This document shows, piece after piece, positions 1 through 45,461 of a DNA stretch of 64,000 nucleotides. A model generated the notes under the pieces. It was not told the DNA's origin. It searched no databases and saw nothing but the letters and a program-made list of their open reading frames with translations. The stretch's first letter is position 1. Every line of letters begins with the position of its first letter. Made by a program: the position numbers and the translations under genes. Origin of the DNA: Streptomyces sp. NBC_00154 (GTDB lineage: Bacteria > Actinomycetota > Actinomycetes > Streptomycetales > Streptomycetaceae); NCBI RefSeq assembly GCF_026342835.1, contig NZ_JAPEMI010000001.1:1618501-1682500 (forward strand), given 5' to 3'.

Positions 1-808
1 CCAGCAGGTGCCAGGCGCCGGAGGCTTCCTGGAACTGGAGGGCGTATTCCGCTTCATTCACGTCACGGCCGGTGACGTGCAGGATGCCGTCGGCCTGCCC
101 GCGGGCCCGCTTGAGGACGAGCGTGGCGTCCGCGGCTCCGGCGATCCCGTTGGTGCCGGAGACCTCGGTGAGGAAGTCCTCGGAGGCCATCTTGCGGACG
201 TGGTGGACCAGGACGACGGCGATGCCGTAGTGGTCCGCAAGCCGCTTCGCGTAGCCGACGGAGACGTAGTCCGCGTCGTAGGCGGACACGCCTTGCGGGG
301 CCTGTCCGCGCATCTTGGCGAACACGTCGATGACGACCATCCGGGCGTCCGGGTTGCGCTCCAGCCACTGCGCGATGGCTTCGCTGCCACCTTGCGGGAA
401 GGGCGGGCATTCAGTCACCAGGGTCAGACCGGCCGGCGCCTTCTGCCCACCGAGCAGCTTGCCCATCCGGGTCTTCAGCCGACGCGGGGTGTCCTCCAGG
501 GCGAGGTAGAGCACCGGGCCGCCATCGACGGGCACGGAGTCGAACGCGTGGCCTCCGGCAGCGACGGACAGACCGAGCCCCAGAGAAAGCCATGACTTGC
601 CAACCTTGGGCGGTCCCGCGAGCAGGCTGACGCCTTCCGCGAGGATGCCGGGCACGGCCCATTTCGGCTCGGGGAACTCCGTGGCCATGAGCTGGTCCGC
701 GGTCCACGCGGTCCGGGGCCGCTCCCGCACTGGGGGCGCCGTGGGGGCGGGCTGCGGACCGCTGGGGACGGAGTACAGGTGCAGCGGTGGAATCGGGGAC
801 GCGTTCAT
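1..808 (-). CDS. RecA/RepA-like AAA ATPase of the AICE (partial, runs off left edge)
   Basis: The visible 269 N-terminal residues start MNASPIPPLHLYSVPSG. A Walker A motif GPPKVGKS lies at residues 65-72, an LEDTP segment at 104-108 and a hydrophobic Walker B-type strand (MVVIDVF) near 157-163. This is the RepA/AAA_25 arrangement of hexameric helicase-like ATPases found beside primases in plasmids and AICEs. The ATG overlaps the TGA of the upstream Prim-Pol gene (ATGA), so the two are translationally coupled. The inferred job is DNA unwinding or priming support during replication of the excised element. The C-terminus lies outside the window. A helicase role is inferred from family and context. 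Confidence 0.8.
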   Translation of the reverse strand, partial: MNASPIPPLHLYSVPSGPQPAPTAPPVRERPRTAWTADQLMATEFPEPKWAVPGILAEGVSLLAGPPKVGKSWLSLGLGLSVAAGGHAFDSVPVDGGPVLYLALEDTPRRLKTRMGKLLGGQKAPAGLTLVTECPPFPQGGSEAIAQWLERNPDARMVVIDVFAKMRGQAPQGVSAYDADYVSVGYAKRLADHYGIAVVLVHHVRKMASEDFLTEVSGTNGIAGAADATLVLKRARGQADGILHVTGRDVNEAEYALQFQEASGAWHLL

Positions 809-1743
809 GCCGCCACCTGCCGGGGCCGGTTGGCTCCGGCCCGCAGACCGGATTCGATAGTGCGCCGCGCTTCGCGCTCGCCCTGCCCGGCCTGCCGAGC
901 GGCGGCGGTGAGCCACTCGGTGACCTCACTGGTGCCCATCTCTCCTCCGGCGACGAGTTGCCCGAGGGCGACCGACGCGATGTAGAGAGCCTTGTTGCGC
1001 CCGCCCTCTCTGGCACGAGTGACGCGCTCCAGCTCGCCGTCGACGGCGGCACGTAGCCACTTGCCGCGCCGGTCCGAGGCGAGGGCTACCGTGATGGGCT
1101 GCTGCGGTGGCAGCGGCGCCGGGCGAAGCTGCTCCACGATCCAGCCGGGCAGCGGCTTCACCACGGCCTCGTGGACGGTGGTGTACGGGACGGGCTTACC
1201 GGTGATGGTGCTACCCGGTGCGACGACGTAGCCGCCGTGCGCGCGGGTGTCGATCTTCCATCCGAGCTTGCCCGCCGTGTTGCGCAGCTCGGCATCGCCC
1301 GGGGCCACGTAGTACAGGTGCATGCCTCCGCTGGGGGTTTTCACGATGTGCGTGGCGGGTGCCATCTCGCAGTAGCCGTCGAACGGCTCGCACATCACCA
1401 GGTCCCCCAGCCCTTCGGGGTCGTGGCGCTCCCACAGCGTCAGCAGGACTGCGAGGCCGTTACTGATGCCGGGGCGGGACCATCCGGCGGGCGGGAGGTC
1501 GTCCGGCCCTTTGGGGGTGTCGAGGTCGACAACGACCAGTTGGGATGGGCCGGTTGCGATGCCGATGTTGTAGGGGGCATGCGACCAGCATCGGGTGATG
1601 CGCTCAGGGTCGGTCGTGGCGCGCTCAGCCCAGTTCCGGATTGCGGGCGGCTTGTCGTCGGGAACGAGCGGGAAGACGTGCCACCCGCGGGCGGCAGCGT
1701 CCAGCGCCGCCGACAGCAGCGCGAGGTTGCGGTCATGCGTCAT
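805..1743 (-). CDS. Bifunctional DNA primase/polymerase (Prim-Pol), AICE replication protein
   Basis: A 312-aa protein beginning MTHDRNLALLSAALDAAARG. It shows the Prim-Pol core: GWHVFPLVPDDKPP (20-33), the metal-binding DLD of VVVDLDTPKG (73-75), SGGMHLYY (138-145) and DTRAHGGYVVAPGS (165-178). Such proteins replace RepSA as the replication initiator/primase in one class of AICE. The ATG at 1743 was chosen because AGGAG lies about 10 nt upstream. A longer open frame upstream has no homology-like character. It is preceded by the leader hairpin at 1766-1823 and followed by the overlapping ATPase gene, so it heads a two-gene replication unit. Confidence is high for family and moderate for exact role. 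Confidence 0.88.
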   Translation of the reverse strand: MTHDRNLALLSAALDAAARGWHVFPLVPDDKPPAIRNWAERATTDPERITRCWSHAPYNIGIATGPSQLVVVDLDTPKGPDDLPPAGWSRPGISNGLAVLLTLWERHDPEGLGDLVMCEPFDGYCEMAPATHIVKTPSGGMHLYYVAPGDAELRNTAGKLGWKIDTRAHGGYVVAPGSTITGKPVPYTTVHEAVVKPLPGWIVEQLRPAPLPPQQPITVALASDRRGKWLRAAVDGELERVTRAREGGRNKALYIASVALGQLVAGGEMGTSEVTEWLTAAARQAGQGEREARRTIESGLRAGANRPRQVAA

Positions 1744-1765
1744 GCTGGTGGTTCTCCTGTTTCTG

Positions 1766-1823
1766 TCGAAGGGACGGAGAGCCGAGGCGGTCGCGGTCTT
1801 GTGGTGAGAGGCGACCGCCTCGG
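1766..1823 (-). repeat. Leader hairpin element, copy 1 (before the Prim-Pol gene)
   Basis: Perfect 13-bp arms at 1782-1794 and 1811-1823 (CCGAGGCGGTCGC and complement) enclose a 16-nt loop. The block TCGAAGGGACGGAGA plus the hairpin is repeated at 8114-8165 with about 90% identity. On the transcribed (minus) strand both copies are followed within 4-7 nt by AGGAG and then an ATG. A shared RNA leader or operator for two operons of the element is inferred. Confidence 0.7.
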
Positions 1824-1829
1824 GCGTAG

Positions 1830-2180
1830 CTACTGGTGTGTGGCCCAGTGGGTGTACTGCTGTCGGACGTAGTGGCGGGGGTCGCAGATGACGGTGGTGT
1901 CGTCCAGATCCATCAGGCGTCGGGCTGCCTGGGTTGCCACCTCGCTCGCGCCGCCCGGGACCCCGGCGCGCTCGTCGTCGAGAGCGATGCGGTCGAGGAC
2001 GGCGGCCTTGCGCAGCCAGAACTCCCGGCCCAGTGCCGTGCCGAACGGCTTGTCGGCCGCGGTCTGCGCGGTCCATCCGATCTCGCGGATGACGCTCGGG
2101 GCGAGCGAGTAGGCGGTCTCCGGTGTCGGCCAGTCGTCCGGTTCCGGGCGGTGCTCGGTGCTCGGGTGCAGCTGCTCCAT
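1830..2180 (-). CDS. Small conserved AICE protein of unknown function (116 aa)
   Basis: 116 residues, starting MEQLHPSTEHRPEPDDWPTP and ending YVRQQYTHWATHQ. No signal peptide or membrane segment is visible. It is acidic at the N-terminus and predicted helical in the middle (TALGREFWLRKAAVLDRIAL). The start codon lies one base after the stop of the upstream membrane-protein gene, so it belongs to the same leftward operon. I do not recognise a family. The position between the spread-type membrane gene and the replication gene suggests a conserved accessory of plasmid maintenance or transfer. It is real rather than a shadow because codon third positions are G/C-rich in this frame and the gene spacing is tight. 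Confidence 0.7.
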   Translation of the reverse strand: MEQLHPSTEHRPEPDDWPTPETAYSLAPSVIREIGWTAQTAADKPFGTALGREFWLRKAAVLDRIALDDERAGVPGGASEVATQAARRLMDLDDTTVICDPRHYVRQQYTHWATHQ

Positions 2181-2181
2181 G

Positions 2182-2793
2182 TCAGTGCTCCTTGGTGATG
2201 TCGATGGCGGGGAGTTCGGGAAGTCCGGCGCGGGTGAGCGCGGCGGGGTCGAAGCCGGGCAGTGCCTCGCGGTGGATGAGGGCTTGGGCCAGCGCGGTGG
2301 CGTACGCGGAGCCTTCGCGAGCGACCTCGATCTGTGCTCCGGCGCGCAGGGCTTCGACACGTTCGGTGTGGGCGTGCTCTTCGCGGCGCACCGTGGTCTG
2401 TCTGTCGTAGGCGACGGTGGCGCGGCGGTCGGTGCGCCAGTACCGGGCAGCGATCCCGTACGCCACGGCGGTGGCCAGGACCCACAGCAGCAGTGGAAGC
2501 GACAGCCCGTCGGCGTATCCGGCGACCCCGGCCAGCGCGAGCCCGCCGGAAGTGGCGAACGCGGTCGCCGCGAGGACGCCGTCACCACCACCGCGCCCGG
2601 CGGCGGCGAAGGCGCCGGCCGTTGCGGCCCCTGCTGCGAGGACGACCATCAACGCGGCGTTGCCGACGGAGTGTTCGGCGCCGTTGGCGTTCCAGATCCG
2701 CCCGAGGATGAGCACGGTGGACGTGGCGACGGCCGGGGCGACCTTCGGGGCCGCGAGCGCGACCCAGTGGTGTTGAACGAGTGGTTCGTTCAT
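2182..2793 (-). CDS. Spread-type membrane protein of the AICE (SpdB-like)
   Basis: 203 residues beginning MNEPLVQHHWVALAAPKVAP. Hydrophobic segments lie at about 20-35, 45-68, 75-90 and 95-112. A soluble, charged C-terminal half follows (RREEHAHTERVEALRAGAQIEV). Small multi-pass proteins downstream of traB in Streptomyces conjugative elements are the Spd proteins needed for intramycelial spreading and pock size. That is the likely role here, by position and topology only. The gene sits in a tight operon with the 62-aa membrane gene upstream and the 116-aa gene downstream. Confidence 0.65.
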   Translation of the reverse strand: MNEPLVQHHWVALAAPKVAPAVATSTVLILGRIWNANGAEHSVGNAALMVVLAAGAATAGAFAAAGRGGGDGVLAATAFATSGGLALAGVAGYADGLSLPLLLWVLATAVAYGIAARYWRTDRRATVAYDRQTTVRREEHAHTERVEALRAGAQIEVAREGSAYATALAQALIHREALPGFDPAALTRAGLPELPAIDITKEH

Positions 2794-2804
2794 GGCGGGG
2801 TCTC

Positions 2805-2993
2805 CTACAGGTCCGGGATGGCGTCGATGACGGCGGTGGTGAGTTCGTTGATGGGTCCGGAGGCGCCGGTGGAGGCGAGGAAGAACCCGAACATGACGGC
2901 GATGAACGCGGAGCCGTAGCCGAGGGTGTTGGAGCGGAGCAGGAAGAACAGGACCAGTCCGAACAGCAGGACCAGGGAGACGGTGACGGCCAC
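2805..2993 (-). CDS. Small membrane protein (62 aa), spread operon
   Basis: Read from a GTG at 2993 preceded by GGAAAGGGG. It gives 62 residues with two hydrophobic helices: VAVTVSLVLLFGLVLFFLL near the start, then AFIAVMFGFFLASTGA. The tail is short (INELTTAVIDAIPDL). The stop lies 11 nt before the next gene. Short two-helix proteins of this kind recur beside traB/spd genes. Function is unknown; spreading or pore assembly is an inference from position. A longer in-frame extension upstream overlaps the zinc-finger gene and has compositionally odd sequence, so it was not used. Confidence 0.6.
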   Translation of the reverse strand: MAVTVSLVLLFGLVLFFLLRSNTLGYGSAFIAVMFGFFLASTGASGPINELTTAVIDAIPDL

Positions 2994-3036
2994 GACGGGC
3001 CCCTTTCCGGTGTGGTGGTGCGGGACGGTTGGCGGG

Positions 3037-3288
3037 TTAGCGGGTGCCGTCGCGGTGGAGGCGGGCGGCGACGTTGTAGAGGTGGCGGCCGACGCGTATC
3101 CGCTTGCCGGTGGCCTTGCAGCGGCGGCAGTCCTTGCCGCGCTTGGTGCGGCCCTTGCGGTCGGTCTTGGTGGCGTGGCCGAAGCCGCGGCACTTGCGGC
3201 AGTTTCCGAAGGGCGAGGCCGCACACAGGGATGCGTAACTGAGGGTGACGAAGAGGAGGAGTGCGCTAGCAAGCAGGGCAGGGGTCAT
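3037..3288 (-). CDS. Small zinc-finger protein with N-terminal hydrophobic segment
   Basis: 83 residues. MTPALLASALLLFVTLSYASL forms an N-terminal membrane or signal segment, followed by a DnaJ-like zinc-finger pair, CRKCRGFGHATKT and CRRCKATGKR, in a strongly basic context (RKGRTKRGKD). This architecture suggests a membrane-tethered nucleic-acid or partner-binding protein. The position directly 3' of traB and of the palindrome cluster at 3328-3418 places it in the transfer module. I recognise the pattern from Streptomyces AICEs but know no assigned function. Confidence 0.7.
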   Translation of the reverse strand: MTPALLASALLLFVTLSYASLCAASPFGNCRKCRGFGHATKTDRKGRTKRGKDCRRCKATGKRIRVGRHLYNVAARLHRDGTR

Positions 3289-3327
3289 GACGGGGCCTCC
3301 GGGCCTGTTTCAGGGGTTCGTGCAGGT

Positions 3328-3418
3328 AGGCCGCTATGCGCTAGTGGCCTGATCAGATGCCAGATGGGCCGCTATCGGGGCTGCTATCGATAGCAGGGTG
3401 TGGCGCTATCGATAGCAG
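3328..3418. repeat. Palindrome cluster 3' of traB (candidate clt / TraB recognition site)
   Basis: The 140-bp gap after the traB stop contains an imperfect hairpin AGGCCGCTA/TAGTGGCCT (3328-3336, 3342-3350) and a half site GCTATCG (3371-3377). It also contains a perfect 16-bp palindrome CTGCTATCGATAGCAG (3381-3396) and a second palindrome GCTATCGATAGC (3405-3416). The two palindrome centres are 22 bp apart, about two helical turns. TraB pumps of Streptomyces plasmids are known to bind short repeats in clt, next to the traB 3' end. The assignment here is by position and structure. Confidence 0.55.
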
Positions 3419-3428
3419 TCCCCACAGG

Positions 3429-5678
3429 TCAGCTCGCGTCCCGATTTCCGTTACGCTCCGCAACCGTCGCGGCGATGTCATCGCGCTTGATGCCGCGCTT
3501 GTTGACGAACTTGCCGTCGATGCGACGGCCCACCTGTCCGGCCGCGATGCCGTACGGCTTGAGTGCTGCGGTCAGGTGCGCGGTCTGCTCCTCACCGGAC
3601 ATGCGAACCCAGTCGCCGTAGCGCTCCGGCCGCAGATCGGCGAGGCGCTCGACCACGGTCTCGTTCCACACCTTCGACTCGTCCGCGGGGATGACCGCGA
3701 GGATGTCCGGCAGCAGCGAGTCCGCGGCGCCCTGACTGGCCTCGAACGTCTCCCCGAGCGCATGCCCGGACAGGGTTCCGGCGGCTTCGCGCAGGCGGCG
3801 GGCCCGCAGGCCGATCACCTCGGCGGCGGGAGCGTCGACGTAGACGGACGAGACGATCCTTGCGTCGGCGCCTTCACCGACGAAGTAGTGGATGCCCTTG
3901 TCCTTCCACGAGAACATCGTGGCCCGGATGCCCCGCTTGTAGCTGGACGTGCCGAGCACCATGTCGTTCTCCAGCTGCCCCATGACCTTCAGGCACCACC
4001 GGGCCGACGCGTTCGCGCTGATCCCGGTCGGCAGAGCCTTCGCGTCCGGGCGCTGCGTGGCGAGCAGCAACACGATGCCGGTGGCGGGGCCGCGCTTGAC
4101 CAGGTCGGTGCAGATCTCTTCGAACTCCCCGCCGTGCTTGGGGTGCTCGAACCACACCTGGCACTCGTCGACCCCGATGACAATCGGGTGCAGCCCGAGC
4201 TTGGGCTTGTTCGCCAGCTCGGACGTCACCTTCGACTCGGGGCTGATGTCCCGCGGCAAGGACCGGATCATCTTGGCCCTACGCCGCAGCTCGGTACGCA
4301 GTTCCCGCAGGTCAGCGAGCGCGTACTCAATGTCCTCATCGTCGTCCCCGGCCCGGTGCCGGTGCGAGACCCGCTCGCCGACGGGGTCGAGGTCGCCGGT
4401 TCCCTTCAGGTCGTAGGTGTGCAGCTCAGCCCGGGTGTCGAGGGCGGCGATGAGCAGGAGCAGACGCAGGAGGAACGTCTTGCCCATGCGCGGGATGGCG
4501 CCGATGACGCCTGCGATGTACATCAAGGTGATGTCGACCCAGCGTCCGCGCTGGTCAGTGCCGAAGGAAACCGGCTTGAACAGGTCCACCGAGCCGCCCT
4601 TGATCAGAGGCCATGCAGGCTTGGTGGCGGTCGACATGTCCTGATCCCCGACCCACAGGACCAGCCGCCCGGTGTGCTCGTCCGGCACCGCTTCGGGCCA
4701 CACGCAGCCCAGCGGGCGGCGCAGACCGGAGGCGAGCTTGTCGCGGCGCTCGATCACATCGGTGACGGTCACGCCGTACGGGAGGTCTCCCTCCGCACGC
4801 CATCCGGGGCCGTCGCGGGTGATCGGGGCGGTGAACGTGAACCCGTCCCGTCCCTTGCTCTGCACCTGGTTGATCGCCGTGATACCCAGCGCCCCGAGCG
4901 CCCGCAGCACGATGTCCGACGTGAGCTTGGGTGCCTTGGTCATCTCAACGGCCCGGGTGATGACCGGGGCGTCGGCCTGCGTGCCGGCCGACCCAAGAGC
5001 GAGTAACACCGCCCCGACCGAAAGGGCTTGGAGCCAGCCGGGGGCGAGGACGTAGATGGCGAGCGCGGCACCCAGCCCGACGAACATAGCCAGCACCGTG
5101 ATCAGGGTCCGCAGCCGGACACGTCCGTCCCGCTGCCGGGAGAGCTTCAGATACTCGGCCGCGTCCTCGCGGCGGACCGAGGCGAGTCGGACCGGCTCGC
5201 CCTCGCGGTCGGCTACCCACCGCATCGTCCCGCCCACGAACTTTGCCGCACCGCGCGGCGACTGGAAGGCGAGCCGGGCCGCGTAGTACGGGGAGCGCAG
5301 CGCGTGGTACCCGGCGAGGTGGCCGTAGTGGCCCGCGGCCCAGCGGGTGGCGGTCTTGAACTCGGTTCCGGAGCGCAGCCACAGCGGGACGATCGCCCTG
5401 CGTTTGGCGCCCATGATGCGGCCCATGAACCCGGGCCCGACTTCCGCTGGGCCGTCGACCATCACGGGCTCGGTCGGGTCGCCCGACCCAGCATCCGACC
5501 CGTTGCCCGACCGCGCGGTGTGTGAGTCGGCCGACCGGTCGGCGGCACGGTCGGCCGACTCGGATCGGGCCGACCGTGCCTTGTCGAGGTCGACCACGTC
5601 GCCGCCCAAGTCGGGTGCGGCGGCCTTCATGTCGGCTTCGAGTCGGTTGAAGAGTTCGCTCTCGTCGTCGTGATTCAC
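3429..5678 (-). CDS. traB: TraB/TraSA-type FtsK-SpoIIIE conjugal DNA translocase
   Basis: 749 residues from GTG 5678, chosen because GGGAAGGA lies 7 nt upstream. The N-terminal 150 residues are soluble. Two membrane helices lie near residues 190-232 (LITVLAMFVGLGAALAIYVL and the following ALSVGAVLLALGSAG). The FtsK motor domain carries Walker A GAIPRMGK (393-400) and Walker B IVIGVDE (499-505). A C-terminal segment (IAAGQVGRRIDGKFVNKRGI) resembles the winged-helix gamma domain that reads clt repeats. Known family members move double-stranded DNA between hyphae as hexamers at the membrane. It is the central gene of the transfer operon. A 13-bp-arm hairpin (5711-5752) precedes it, and candidate clt palindromes follow it. 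Confidence 0.93.
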   Translation of the reverse strand: MNHDDESELFNRLEADMKAAAPDLGGDVVDLDKARSARSESADRAADRSADSHTARSGNGSDAGSGDPTEPVMVDGPAEVGPGFMGRIMGAKRRAIVPLWLRSGTEFKTATRWAAGHYGHLAGYHALRSPYYAARLAFQSPRGAAKFVGGTMRWVADREGEPVRLASVRREDAAEYLKLSRQRDGRVRLRTLITVLAMFVGLGAALAIYVLAPGWLQALSVGAVLLALGSAGTQADAPVITRAVEMTKAPKLTSDIVLRALGALGITAINQVQSKGRDGFTFTAPITRDGPGWRAEGDLPYGVTVTDVIERRDKLASGLRRPLGCVWPEAVPDEHTGRLVLWVGDQDMSTATKPAWPLIKGGSVDLFKPVSFGTDQRGRWVDITLMYIAGVIGAIPRMGKTFLLRLLLLIAALDTRAELHTYDLKGTGDLDPVGERVSHRHRAGDDDEDIEYALADLRELRTELRRRAKMIRSLPRDISPESKVTSELANKPKLGLHPIVIGVDECQVWFEHPKHGGEFEEICTDLVKRGPATGIVLLLATQRPDAKALPTGISANASARWCLKVMGQLENDMVLGTSSYKRGIRATMFSWKDKGIHYFVGEGADARIVSSVYVDAPAAEVIGLRARRLREAAGTLSGHALGETFEASQGAADSLLPDILAVIPADESKVWNETVVERLADLRPERYGDWVRMSGEEQTAHLTAALKPYGIAAGQVGRRIDGKFVNKRGIKRDDIAATVAERNGNRDAS

Positions 5679-5710
5679 TGACAGTCCTTCCCGGACTACA
5701 GGGGTTGGAA

Positions 5711-5752
5711 GGGGTCCGGACGGCGCTTTGGACGGCCTACCGTCCGGACCCC
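5711..5752. other. Perfect 13-bp inverted repeat upstream of traB
   Basis: GGGGTCCGGACGG (5711-5723) and its exact complement CCGTCCGGACCCC (5740-5752) are separated by 16 nt. The repeat lies between the stop of the zinc-binding gene and the traB start, ending 33 nt before that start. It could attenuate or terminate read-through, or hold a protein operator. There is no T tract, so a simple intrinsic terminator is not certain. Confidence 0.6.
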
Positions 5753-5773
5753 GCATGGCGGTTGCTGTGCAGT

Positions 5774-6159
5774 TCAAGCGGCGCGCTGTTCTTCGGGGTA
5801 GGCGCAGCCGGGGCACATGCCGAGCGAGGTCGGGATGCAGTACCCGACATCGGCCCGGCAGGCGGGGCAGGTGCGCCGTGCGGTCATGGCCTTGGCGAGC
5901 GCGGCCCGCTTGGCCGTGGTCATCGGGCGGACCGGCTTGGCCAGCTCGATGCGGTACAGGAACGCGACCGCCACACCTGCCTTACGGCGACGTGAGCGGC
6001 GCATGATCTGTGCGGCGACTGCCTGCCCACCGGGTCGCAGCCCGCGGTCGCGGAGCTGGCGGCGGGTGGCATAGCCGTCCGGGGCCAACTTCCACGGGAA
6101 GGTCGGTATCCCGTGGAAGGCGCCGGTCGGGTCGTAGCACTTGCCGAACGTCGGGGACA

Positions 6160-6160
<1 letters not shown>
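5774..6160 (-). CDS. RRQ-motif zinc-binding protein of AICEs
   Basis: 128 residues starting MSPTFGKCYDPTGAFHGIPT. The hallmark segment ATRRQLRDRGLRPGGQ lies at 31-46, with a basic stretch RRSRRRK after it. A C-terminal zinc site is made of CPAC (98-101), Cys108 and CPGC (116-119). I recognise this as the RRQRL-motif zinc-binding family carried next to traB in Streptomyces integrative elements; its biochemical role is not known to me. The ATG overlaps the TGA of the GGDEF gene (ATGA), so it is co-translated with it. The basic patch and zinc ribbon suggest nucleic-acid binding. Confidence 0.8.
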
Positions 6161-6806
<646 letters not shown>

Positions 6807-6810
<4 letters not shown>

Positions 6811-7808
6811 GCCGCCACCGCCCCGGGGGCGTCACCGTCGTTGTCCTGCTCGGTGTCGACGGCGTGCAGCGGCTGACCGGCCCGCTCGCTCTTGAGCGTG
6901 TCGCGCAGGATGCGGGCGGTGGCCTGGGAGACGTGCACCGCGGCCCGGATCCGGTCCGCGGTCAGCTCCGCGTCCGTCCAACCGGCCGTGGTCGCCCGGG
7001 CCTCGGACAGGATCTCGTCCGGGGTCCGCTTGGTGTTCGCCTTGCCCGCCGTGCGGCGAGTCGGGCGCTTCGCAGACGGCTTGGACTCGGCCGGGGGCTT
7101 GGCCTCGGGCTTCGGGTCCGGGGCGGGCGGTTCTGCCTCGCTCGCGGGGTTGAGCTCCCCGAGCTTGAGCAGCACGCGTTCCGGGCGGGGCGTCTTCGAC
7201 CGCCACAGGCGGCCGTGCCGCTCGCGCAGTGCCGCGCGTGCCAGCAGGCGTTCCCGCTCGCGGGCCAGCGCGTCACCGTAGGAGGTGACCTCCCACAGCG
7301 TCATGCGCCGCCACAGGGCGAACGTCGACAGCGGGGCGAGCAGCCAGCGTGAGGCACGGATCTTGTCCATGCGGCGGCCGGTCACCGCACCGATCCGTAC
7401 CGCGTAGATGTGGGCGGCGATCTCGGAGAACACGACCCACAGGAGCGGCATCGTGCCGTGGGCGACCTTCGCCCATGTCCCTTGGCCAGCCGAGACGTTT
7501 AAGCCACAGGTCACCAGCGTGAGGGCCCAGGGCACGAACCGGACCCAGGCAAGCGCCATGTCCATCCGGATCAGCATCAGGTTCGCCACGGTGAACACCG
7601 GGATCGCCAGATCGATACCGACCGGCAGCATCCACGGCCCGCTGAACCCCCACCGCAGAGCGGCAGCGGACACGGCATCGAACGAGGAGATCAGACCCAG
7701 GGCGCCGACCCCCGCCGCGGCGAGCGCGCCGACCCCGGCCAGGCCCATTTCCGGGCGGGTCAAGGGCGGAACGGCCGGCCGATCCGGCGTCTGCGCAGTG
7801 GTCGTCAT
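6807..7808 (-). CDS. DUF2637 membrane protein of the AICE
   Basis: 333 residues from ATG 7808 (GGAAGG about 10 nt upstream). The N-terminal half has four or five hydrophobic helices (GVGALAAAGVGALGLISSF, MLPVGIDLAIPVFTVANLML, WALTLVTCGLNVSA, MPLLWVVFSEIAAHIYAV), the DUF2637 pattern. The C-terminal half is proline/lysine-rich linker (about 220-265) then a helical segment with a possible HTH-like SQATARILRDTLKSE. DUF2637 proteins are almost always on actinobacterial mobile elements and are linked to plasmid spreading; function is otherwise unknown. It overlaps both neighbours by 4 nt, including its own start with the preceding gene's stop. Confidence 0.82.
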
Positions 7809-8098
7809 GCCGCGGCCGCCTTCCGGGACGGCCGACGACGACCGCACGGCCGCGGTAGCGGGATGACGTTGAACAGTTCCGGCGCGAACGTCTCGATCGC
7901 CTCAGCGGCGACCCGGCTCACGCGGTCGGGGAAATCGGGGTTGTCCGCGAGGATGTCGCGGGCCGCATCCATGCGCGCCGCACGCTCCATCTCGCTCTCG
8001 CCCTCCACCCCGAGCCACAGCTCAACCGGGGTCCCCAGAGCCAGTTCCACAAAGTCGGTGTCCGAGACGACCTCGTGGCCGCCGATGAATGCACGCAT
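7805..8098 (-). CDS. First gene of the leftward transfer operon, unknown small protein (97 aa)
   Basis: 97 residues, MRAFIGGHEVVSDTDFVELA onward, with an acidic helical centre (GEGESEMERAARMDAARDIL) and a basic proline-rich end (LPRPCGRRRPSRKAAAA). No known domain is recognised. The ATG has AGGAG six nt upstream and lies directly behind leader hairpin copy 2 (8114-8165). Its stop overlaps the DUF2637 start. As the first gene behind the GntR operators it is probably the most directly controlled member of the operon. Confidence 0.72.
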   Translation of the reverse strand: MRAFIGGHEVVSDTDFVELALGTPVELWLGVEGESEMERAARMDAARDILADNPDFPDRVSRVAAEAIETFAPELFNVIPLPRPCGRRRPSRKAAAA

Positions 8099-8113
8099 GG
8101 AGCGCTCCTGTAA

Positions 8114-8165
8114 TCGAAGGGACGGAGAACCGGGCGGTCGTGGCCTTGTGGTGAGAGGCGACCGC
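8114..8165 (-). repeat. Leader hairpin element, copy 2 (before the transfer operon)
   Basis: This is a second copy of the element at 1766-1823. It shares TCGAAGGGACGGAGA, the loop CTTGTGGTGAGAGGCGACCG and arms GCGGTCG/CGACCGC (8134-8140, 8159-8165). Several outer stem pairs present in copy 1 are lost here, while the loop is unchanged. AGGAG follows 4 nt after the shared block on the minus strand, then the ATG at 8098. Confidence 0.68.
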
Positions 8166-8270
8166 TCCGCGGGTGAAGCCGTAGTTCCGGCTCCCCTCAG
8201 CCCCGCCCGTACGAGACGGGCAAGGGAGGCAACCGGCCGCAGGCGAAGTGCGCTGCGGAGTGGTTGAAGC

Positions 8271-8286
8271 TGCGCTGTTCAGCGCA
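8271..8286. other. Short inverted repeat in the divergent control region
   Basis: TGCGCTG-TT-CAGCGCA is a 7-bp inverted repeat in the 462-bp non-coding region 8099-8560. That region separates the leftward transfer operon from the rightward GntR gene. Apart from this, the leader element and the CCTAGG operators, I see no gene in the region. Confidence 0.35.
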
Positions 8287-8456
8287 CGGCTCTCGCCGCG
8301 CGCGCCGCCTACTTGGGCCAGGAGAGGCGACGAATCCCGATTCAGTTGTCAAGGAACGAACGCTTCCTTCGAACCCGTTTCACGGGGCCCTCCGGGCGCA
8401 GGCAGTGCGGTTCTCTCGGCTTCACTAGTGCAGGCGAGCCCTGAAGTGTGATCCAA

Positions 8457-8542
8457 ATTGACCTAGGTCAATCACTAAGGAGGAAGTTACCTAGGTCGAT
8501 CTGAGTCGTCAAGGGGAGTGCGAGAACTGAAATTGACCTAGG
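8457..8542. promoter_or_regulatory. Three CCTAGG operators for the GntR/KorSA-like repressor
   Basis: A perfect 16-bp palindrome ATTGACCTAGGTCAAT lies at 8457-8472. Partial copies TTACCTAGGTCGA (8487-8499) and TTGACCTAGGCCGG (8533-8546) follow. The CCTAGG cores are at 8462, 8490 and 8537. The third abuts the -10 of the regulator gene, which fits autorepression. The first two face the leftward transfer operon. KorSA-type GntR proteins are known to repress their own gene and transfer genes. Confidence 0.75.
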
Positions 8543-8547
8543 CCGGT

Positions 8548-8553
8548 TACGCT
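8548..8553 (+). promoter_or_regulatory. Leaderless -10 hexamer of the GntR gene
   Basis: TACGCT ends 7 nt before the ATG at 8561 and there is no Shine-Dalgarno. Transcription would therefore start at or next to the start codon. Confidence 0.6.
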
Positions 8554-8560
8554 CGACCCC

Positions 8561-8947
8561 ATGGAGAAGAGCCCCGGCACACCGCGCCCTACGGCCAAGA
8601 ACATTGCTGCGGAGATCCGCCAGCAGATCGTGAACGGAGACCTCGGCCCCGGCGATCAGTTGCGGGCCGCCCGCGACCTGGCCAAGGAGTATGGGGTGAC
8701 CTTGGTCAAGGTGCAGAACGCTTACCGGGAGCTCAGCGAGGAAGGTCTCGTGTTCTCCCAACAGGGGCGCGGCACCTTCGTGGTCGACCCCTCGCAGCCC
8801 GTCGATGAAGTGCAGCGCGGAGGGTCGGCATTCGTCTCGCTCGCAACGGAGATCAGCGCGATGCACGAGACAATCCGTCAGCTTGGGGAGCGTCTTGAGC
8901 GCCTTGAGCAGATCGTGAATTCCGGTGGGTCAGCACCCGCTCAGTGA
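8561..8947 (+). CDS. GntR-family repressor, KorSA-like transfer regulator
   Basis: 128 residues, MEKSPGTPRPTAKNIAAEIR onward. The GntR winged helix spans about 10-75 (IVNGDLGPGDQLRAARDLAK, YGVTLVKVQNAYRELSEEG, QQGRGTFVV). The short C-terminus is a coiled-coil-like dimer helix (TIRQLGERLERLEQIV) instead of a ligand domain, as in KorSA/KorA of Streptomyces plasmids. It is transcribed away from the transfer operon across a 462-bp control region with three CCTAGG sites. Expected role: keep transfer, pump and replication genes off until mating or excision. The leaderless -10 is noted separately. Confidence 0.85.
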   Translation: MEKSPGTPRPTAKNIAAEIRQQIVNGDLGPGDQLRAARDLAKEYGVTLVKVQNAYRELSEEGLVFSQQGRGTFVVDPSQPVDEVQRGGSAFVSLATEISAMHETIRQLGERLERLEQIVNSGGSAPAQ

Positions 8948-9099
8948 CGACATCGGCCCGCTGGACCAGCAGAGTCGCCTCCATACGCGCCTTGTTGAGA
9001 CTCGCTCTGATCAGGGCGCACTGAGCTGGGGTAAGCCCCGCTCCGCTGCTTTGCTGTTCGAACGTCTCTGACATGCGAGACAGCTTGGGCGCGGAAACA

Positions 9100-9134
9100 A
9101 CGATGGACCCGGACACATTGTCCGGGTCCATCGT
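9100..9134. terminator. Strong hairpin with 16-bp perfect arms between GntR and flavoprotein genes
   Basis: ACGATGGACCCGGACA (9100-9115), loop CAT, and the exact complement (9119-9134), then CTTTGC. It sits between the ends of two convergent genes (stops at 8947 and 9164) and would work in both directions. It contains CCGGACA/TGTCCGG, the same box used in the arrays at 11118 and 14587. Confidence 0.72.
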
Positions 9135-9163
9135 CTTTGCAGATCAGGGGTGTTGACCGTACG

Positions 9164-9742
9164 TCACTCCATAGCTCGATCAACAGCATCTAGTACTGCG
9201 GTCCACGGGAGTTCGCGCCCGGAGGGCGCCTGTCGCGGTTCGTACAGCGGCCACACGTCCGGTCCGTAGACGAGGTGAACTTGCGCTTCGCGCAACACCT
9301 CAAGGTGGCCCTGCCAGGCAGGATGACGGGCGTGGGCCGCACTAACCCGAGGGAAGACCACGACAGGAAGTCCGAGAGTCCCAATGGCTTCGGCCACCTG
9401 CGTCAGCGCCTGATTGTCCGCGATACCCACCGCAAGCTTGGCGACCATGTTCGCGCTGGCAGGAGCGACCACGTAGCAGTCAACGGGCGGGTGCGGCCGT
9501 GCGTCTCCAGGTAGCCGCGTCTCATCCCGCACCGGAAGACCGGTCAGCTTCTCCAGCCGCTCTACCTCGCCACTCATCCGGAGCCAGTGGCCCGCGGTCG
9601 GCGTCAGCGTCACGGCCACCTTCCAGCCGCGTTCCATCGCAGGCTCGACCAGCCCGGTGCCGAGCGCTTCCACTCCGCCGGCCGCCGAACCCACAACGCC
9701 GAGAACTCCGCGCTTCGCCGCTCTCACTGCACCGCCCTGCAT
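9164..9742 (-). CDS. Flavoprotein of the HFCD (phosphopantothenoylcysteine decarboxylase-like) family
   Basis: 192 residues. LGVVGSAAGGVEAL is the N-terminal nucleotide-fold loop. CYVVAPASANMVAKLAVG (FMN-binding Pro-Ala-Ser-Ala-Asn) and IADNQALTQVAEAIG are typical of this family. A usual coaBC is about 400 aa with a synthetase domain, so this is a stand-alone flavoprotein. The start at 9742 overlaps the XRE regulator by 19 nt, so the two are coupled. I recall XRE-plus-flavoprotein pairs as frequent accessory cargo in Streptomyces; the substrate is unknown. Coenzyme A synthesis itself is unlikely to be its role. Confidence 0.78.
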   Translation of the reverse strand: MQGGAVRAAKRGVLGVVGSAAGGVEALGTGLVEPAMERGWKVAVTLTPTAGHWLRMSGEVERLEKLTGLPVRDETRLPGDARPHPPVDCYVVAPASANMVAKLAVGIADNQALTQVAEAIGTLGLPVVVFPRVSAAHARHPAWQGHLEVLREAQVHLVYGPDVWPLYEPRQAPSGRELPWTAVLDAVDRAME

Positions 9743-45341: not shown

Positions 45342-45371
45342 GAACCCCGCGGCCGCCACGGCACGGGGTTC
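45342..45371. terminator. Terminator after the pseudokinase gene
   Basis: GAACCCCG (45342-45349) pairs with CGGGGTTC (45364-45371), followed by TTG. It lies 26 nt after the stop. Confidence 0.65.
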
Positions 45372-45461
45372 TTGCATCGCCCGGCACCCGGTGACCGTAT
45401 GGATGTGTTGCGCTCACTCATGGGGTAGTCCCAGGATCGCCCCGTCATCGGAGGTGATCCC

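Follow-up and report, generated by a model that had tools for sequence, protein, structure and literature searches.

The window, the whole 64,000-nt stretch of Streptomyces sp. NBC_00154 DNA that was analysed, starts inside an actinomycete integrative and conjugative element (AICE; Table 1). The integrase, Rep and FtsK/SpoIIIE-like Tra genes that define such an element are recognisable from the genes alone, the integrase gene lying just beyond the window edge with a PF00589 match (26.0 bits) slightly below the cut-off of 27.1. Replication modules of the Prim-Pol, RepAM or RepPP kind have been described in AICEs (PMC3218068), and the element in the window belongs to that class and has the same kinds of gene modules. 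Pfam gives no match for its FtsK-like translocase at E ≤ 0.001. At this threshold neither Pfam nor NCBIfam nor PHROG matches the 97-aa protein, whose small gene comes first, ahead of the transfer genes; the structure model of this protein, of low confidence (mean pLDDT 72.2), has no PDB match at E ≤ 0.001. Other element genes on the minus strand encode an AAA ATPase, small proteins, a DUF2637 protein and, among the transfer genes, a GGDEF protein; a GGDEF profile match is present in 38 of the 81 leader loci. A motif centred on CCTAGG (TTGACCTAGGTCAA and variants) occurs three times at 8458-8544, between the GntR-type gene and the second leader copy; judging by their sequence, these are probable operators.

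Table 1. Element genes and leader features in the window (positions in the window)
Feature	Position	Strand	Evidence or remark
Prim-Pol gene (PF09250)	805..1743	-	E 3.2e-43
AGGAG ribosome-binding site of Prim-Pol gene	1754..1758	-	sequence
Leader copy 1	1766..1823	-	covariance model match 1824-1762, 85.6 bits (copy is in model)
Copy 1 pyrimidine-rich box	1780-1766	-	3' of hairpin in mRNA
Copy 1 hairpin	stem (+ strand numbering) 1782-1794 with 1811-1823, loop 1795-1810	-	sequence
Co-directional open frame upstream of copy 1	1830..2180	-	
FtsK/TraB-like DNA translocase	3429..5678	-	phrog_1358 E 3.1e-22; weak NCBIfam TraB match
GGDEF (diguanylate cyclase-type) protein	6160-6810	-	
97-aa protein (MRxYIGGHQ...ELALGTP...)	7805..8098	-	conserved element family
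AGGAG ribosome-binding site of the gene for the 97-aa protein	8105..8109	-	sequence
Leader copy 2	8114..8169	-	covariance model match 8171-8110, 63.2 bits (copy is in model)
Copy 2 box	8128-8114	-	sequence
Copy 2 hairpin	7-bp core 8134-8140 with 8159-8165, loop 8141-8158	-	sequence
Divergent GntR-type regulator (PF00392)	8561..8947	+	Pfam

An earlier note on this DNA had pointed to one block standing both before the Prim-Pol gene and before the first transfer-side gene, and it placed both copies correctly. The identity of the two, put there at about 90%, is 92% over 53 nt (blastn against the own genome, query positions 18-70, E 2.3e-14), and the 10.4-Mb genome contains no further strong blastn match to copy 1 (next E 0.249). 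On the coding strand, which is the minus strand, the order at both copies is hairpin, pyrimidine-rich box, AGGAG and ATG. The CTCCGTCCCTTCGA box, which had been taken for a 5' box, therefore stands 3' of the hairpin in the mRNA. The start codon follows the block after 22 nt in copy 1 (ATG 1743-1741) and 15 nt in copy 2 (ATG 8098-8096), the two ends of the range proposed for AGGAG and ATG. The stems are also as proposed, perfect in copy 1 (13 bp, enclosing 16 nt) and shorter in copy 2, where perfect pairing is confined to a 7-bp core. The covariance model also detects a third, more divergent leader elsewhere in this genome (C2:3228204; L313 6205-6264), where a second element carries it before another Prim-Pol gene. 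The variable loop base is G in this leader and A in the element of the window.

The RNA folding z-score is -5.07 for copy 1 and -0.88 for copy 2, and on the opposite (+) strand it is -5.31 and 0.42, respectively. Copy 2 is unconvincing by energy, so the evidence for the structure is comparative. Sequestration of the Shine-Dalgarno sequence by the 3' box was considered and dropped: the box pairs with GGAGA in the copy 1 fold, but the ribosome-binding site is invariant, so that such pairing is not provable. Copy 1 is intercistronic, since only 6 nt separate its stem from the stop codon of the upstream frame. This position would suit a hairpin that acts passively on its mRNA, as an end-stabiliser, processing site or attenuator. 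Neither copy looks like an intrinsic terminator, however, as neither is among the three terminator-like sites in 1600-9200 and no T run is present at either.

The leader represents a sizeable RNA family of bacteria that is missing from Rfam 15 and is carried by AICEs of Streptomyces and sister genera. Copy 1 has blastn matches in 42 of 246 Streptomyces genomes, a count that exceeds that of real leaders, since nine of the 48 stretches fetched around such matches (L167-L175) are false, with no nhmmer leader and no element proteins. The block is found by nhmmer in 39 of the 48, in 33 of them as two or more copies spaced 0.3-8.7 kb from each other and in six as a single copy. Most of these stretches have one copy before a Prim-Pol or other replication-side gene and another before a homologue of the 97-aa protein. 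A search of other AICEs had been suggested in the earlier note, and related elements do carry the block at the same two gene positions. A first covariance model, built from 59 copies, matches 28 of 150 genomes sampled from the family, which represent 7 of its 17 genera in the sample; in a sample of the class it matches 8 of 394, every one a Streptomyces. A broader model has matches in 107 of 199 Streptomyces genomes and, for the phylum, in 7 of 396, again in Streptomyces only. Among the 20 weak matches checked by eye at the end of those listed from the search of 199 Streptomyces genomes, 18 precede an apparent Prim-Pol, methyltransferase or other element gene, as judged by its N-terminus; the exceptions, L430 and L432, have no convincing gene, and L434 and L435 are near-identical. 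A protein search with Prim-Pol gives a match in 45 of 81 genomes. The best 30 of these loci include 21 with a leader at E ≤ 0.02 by the first covariance model and 23 at E ≤ 1e-4 by the second, which several of the loci had trained, and the leader is absent from the examined stretch in seven.

Rfam 15 has no match at the leaders of the window, nor at E ≤ 5 at the leader in four other loci (L178, L201, L206 and L196). The sole match at gathering score in the window is an NLPC-P60 cis-regulatory RNA (RF03033, 67.4 bits) at 45366-45455. Searched with blastn at E ≤ 0.01, plasmid and phage collections contain nothing that matches copy 1. A 15-nt pattern occurs in 90 stretches of viral contigs, and chance matches are expected for a pattern so short. 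Three of the 80 pattern stretches listed lie outside Actinomycetota (L228, L272 and L277); they have neither a hairpin nor a model match below E 0.2 and were put down to chance. A literature search of titles and the beginnings of abstracts, with most subscription journals outside its scope, yielded no description of such a leader. To our knowledge, there is no earlier case in which AICE replication and conjugation are controlled at the level of RNA. The terms "hairpin", "untranslated" and "inverted repeat" occur 0 times in the main text of the paper on AICEs with such replication modules (PMC3218068).

In the family consensus, an outer stem (about 13 bp) is followed by an internal loop and then by an inner stem of 3 bp, which carries a loop of the form C-N-C-C-A(-C)-A with six or seven nucleotides (CGCCAA or CACCACA). 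The loop is the most conserved part and is nearly fixed, with A, G or U at the variable base N. In 59 sequences found and aligned without reference to structure (59 of 63 non-redundant copies, two of L164 and one each of L141 and L159 being omitted, and also L148), both partners have changed in 10 of the 16 pairs. Sliding the partners in this alignment lowers the proportion of paired cells from 91.6% to at most 56.4%. In an alignment of 147 distinct copies that is fitted to the model, 15 of 16 pairs have changes on both sides, with 94.8% of cells paired versus 82.0% after shuffling and 253 cells changed on both sides versus 47. The stem is wholly rebuilt in L129 (CGGGGCGGTCGC) and L380 (GGGCGGCCCC). 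The earlier note had contrasted a conserved loop with a weakened stem. The first half of this stands, since the loop is conserved and is matched within elements (see below), but in the family as a whole the stem is kept by compensatory changes.

The inner stem is not complete in all copies. Among 150 aligned copies (of 152 matches, from 100 chosen sources, with near-duplicates, loci without a match and 5 of 20 weak-match loci omitted), all three inner pairs are present in 97, two in 41 and one or none in nine, and the loop is unrecognisable in three. The 97 complete inner stems are UCU/AGA (74), UCA/UGA (9), UUC/GAA (4), UGU/ACA (2), UCU/AGG (4) and UCU/GGA (4), and their loops include CGCCAA in 71 copies and CACCACA in 13. 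On the coding strand, G-U cells outnumber A-C cells by 47 to 21 in 54 distinct hairpins (p 0.002, nominal because the rows are related), which argues for an RNA of that strand rather than a palindrome in the DNA.

Copies of the leader stand immediately ahead of ribosome-binding sites. Among replication-side leaders with a CAGCATG-like start, and with a 13-bp arm assumed, 54 of 60 have the hairpin 36-39 nt from the start codon; ahead of the 97-aa gene the distance to the ATG is 23-39 nt (34 copies). The replication genes behind the leaders encode Prim-Pol (PF09250), DUF3631/RepAM (PF12307) or DnaB-like proteins with DUF3987 (PF00772/PF13148). Other genes in this position encode cytosine methylases (PF00145), another methyltransferase that is below its Pfam cut-off, and DUF4097, RapZ C-terminal domain and DUF6284 proteins. 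In six elements (L325, L331, L333, L343, L354 and L358) the leader stands directly before the FtsK-like transfer gene, for which the Pfam FtsK_SpoIIIE match is below the cut-off in L325 and L343. The leader marks the replication and transfer operons whatever first gene they have. The first nine or so codons are common to several unrelated first genes, so the leader and the start region seem to travel as a cassette.

Such placement bears on whether the hairpin might act as DNA. As single-stranded DNA it could be a priming or origin site for Prim-Pol or other replication proteins, since it adjoins the Prim-Pol gene and usually occurs more than once per element in the same orientation. This is very unlikely, as the distance to the start codons is fixed, copies precede unrelated genes (methylases, FtsK-like, DUF4097 and RapZ_C), the leader is kept in elements that have DUF3631 or DnaB-like proteins instead, and the G-U bias is that of the coding strand.

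GGCGA[GT] occurs inside the coding sequence, at about +22 to +27, behind replication-side leaders such as those of L137 and L150, and it is found in two reading frames. GGCGAG in codons 8-10 is complementary to the loop CUCGCC, and pairing of the two would form a pseudoknot over the start site. Counted among leaders with the same CAGCATG-like start, 34 of 80 on the replication side have the motif at a distance of 21 or 22 nt downstream from the A of the ATG, compared with 8 of 560 background windows. It is missing from the other 46, however, and GGCGAG is unchanged where the loop is CUCACC, CUCUCC or CACGCC. The pseudoknot was rejected for this lack of covariation, and we regard it as scarcely credible.

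The loops are matched within elements. In 46 of the 48 elements that have at least two aligned copies, some of these elements being close relatives, the base N is the same in all aligned copies, with 18.3 expected and a maximum of 31 in 5000 shuffles. The exceptions are L330 and L155, the second match in L155 looking spurious, and a few copies were not parsed in this comparison (e.g. the ones that precede the FtsK-like gene in L343 and in L358). Where an element has a copy on each side (26 elements, from 31 pairs less one chance pairing, L340, and four duplicates, with the methylase-side copy of L129 used as its replication-side copy), N is identical in all 26 and the loop class is the same in 25 (6.7 expected). 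Compared over the apical 12 nt, a copy is more similar to its partner in the element than to the corresponding partner in the nearest relative, chosen by the 97-aa protein, in 20 elements versus 2 with four ties; for the stems the figures are 13 versus 4 with nine ties. The stems of the two copies often differ while the loop is the same, for example in L144 and L344. Both copies of L148 (6778-6837 and 13681-13738) have an inverted loop core, GGTCTTT(T)GCCGAGAGA, with the usual box, ribosome-binding site and gene; this is the only such inversion in the loci scanned.

A passive hairpin with no trans reader would owe this sharing of loops to gene conversion, and the somewhat greater likeness of stems within elements, like the intercistronic position of copy 1, agrees with that. 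It is an unlikely reading, since conservation is highest in the loop and copies that share a loop often have different stems. Gene conversion limited to a dozen bases is the less likely source of the matching, to which gene conversion or shared ancestry, only partly controlled in these comparisons, may partly contribute. The matching is best accounted for by a shared trans reader.

An antisense RNA is one candidate for such a reader. Transcribed from the opposite strand of one leader, in the manner of plasmid countertranscript RNAs, it would present a loop that kisses the loop of its own leader and that of the other. It would account for identical loops on differing stems and for the failure of any protein clearly to track the loop class, and the symmetric pairing of sense and antisense strands would accommodate the inverted loop in both L148 copies. 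We consider it possible but doubtful. Most of the loop is invariant, unlike the diversified loops of antisense systems, the G-U over A-C bias favours the sense strand, and no sigma-70-like promoter is seen on either strand of 1600-9200 in a simple scan that covers Streptomyces promoters poorly. Complementary third sites, apart from the leaders, are not clearly enriched in 66 elements, with a best score of 9.20 versus 9.06 (109 of 2000 shuffles as high) and 40 of 100 matched sites versus 33.3 expected. Host RNAs were scanned in the own genome for type G loops only. The one exact complementary site, CTTTGGCGAGAGG, lies inside a leader, and seven sites have one mismatch, compared with 10 exact and 13 one-mismatch sites for the reversed control.

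No element protein family among those tested clearly predicts the loop class by similarity. Correct predictions number 32 of 59 for Tra (22.1 in shuffles; 7 of 500 shuffles as high), 29 of 59 for Prim-Pol (22.1), 23 of 46 for the RRQRL protein (16.2), 22 of 47 for the DUF2637 protein (14.6), 20 of 45 for an 83-aa protein (15.3), 27 of 59 for the integrase (23.8) and 20 of 52 for GntR (17.8). The scores above the shuffled values, that of Tra being the highest, could be explained by relatedness alone, since the shuffles ignore ancestry. The 97-aa protein reached 0.68 (majority class 0.48) with frames that included the leader itself; read from the start codon it predicts 15 of 41 versus 11.8 (98 of 500 shuffles as high), and it was rejected as the reader. 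The RapZ C-terminal domain is RNA-binding in E. coli RapZ, and L141 encodes a protein with this domain after its third leader copy (5344-5724). Such proteins are present in only 4 of 81 loci, and this candidate too was discarded. The proposal of the earlier note that the loop is read by a shared factor thus has a mixed outcome: the matching of loops within elements fits it, but the scans found no clear antisense locus and no protein that clearly tracks the loop type.

We favour, as the probable reading, a cis-acting mRNA leader whose loop is recognised in trans by a factor specific to the element, through which replication and transfer are gated as one. The leader, of about 55 nt and 15-22 nt before the start codon, would fold into an outer stem, internal loop, inner stem and loop. 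One trans-acting factor of the element would recognise the loop in every copy and would control expression of the replication operon and the transfer genes jointly, most likely at translation initiation, and each element would have its specificity encoded in the loop type (A, G or U at N). The sequences show the structure (through covariation), the strand bias, the placement and spacing, the extent of the family and the matching of loops; we infer that the leader is transcribed, that translation is the controlled step and what kind of molecule the reader is, and the factor may repress or activate. The factor is more likely to be an RNA-binding protein than an antisense RNA. Invariance over most of the loop is the reason for placing the protein first; the antisense RNA comes second since it would account for the matching, and for the inverted L148 loops, with no additional gene. 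The L148 loops, inverted in both copies, count against the favoured reading, being hard to reconcile with a protein that reads sequence, as do the 53 of 150 copies with an incomplete set of the three inner pairs and the weakness of copy 2 by energy.

CopA/CopT and Inc RNA are antisense-controlled leaders of plasmid replication, with a hairpin upstream of the rep gene and a loop that bears the specificity. Like them, the AICE leader has a hairpin just upstream of a replication gene. Unlike them, it also stands before transfer genes and its loop is nearly invariant, and here an antisense RNA is hypothetical. The MS2 coat operator and the leaders of ribosomal protein operons are operator hairpins bound by proteins. 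The AICE hairpin resembles these in having a fixed loop, a free stem and an internal loop close to the ribosome-binding site, but the putative operator would be common to several operons of one mobile element. The control of AICEs that we know of so far is transcriptional. GntR/KorSA-type regulation, e.g. by SCO3932, likewise acts on AICE genes, and a GntR-type gene is divergent from copy 2 in the window; that regulator is a DNA-binding protein at promoters, whereas the AICE leader is an RNA structure at the ribosome-binding site (PMC8584621).

The replication and transfer operons of one AICE bear the same loop allele, and we suggest, tentatively, that the loop, read by one factor encoded by the element, serves as a portable RNA "address label", a code of specificity and perhaps of incompatibility. 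A leader RNA shared by these operons, if true, would explain how replication of the element and transfer of its DNA start jointly. Loop swaps between elements would then be a directly testable handle on AICE compatibility.
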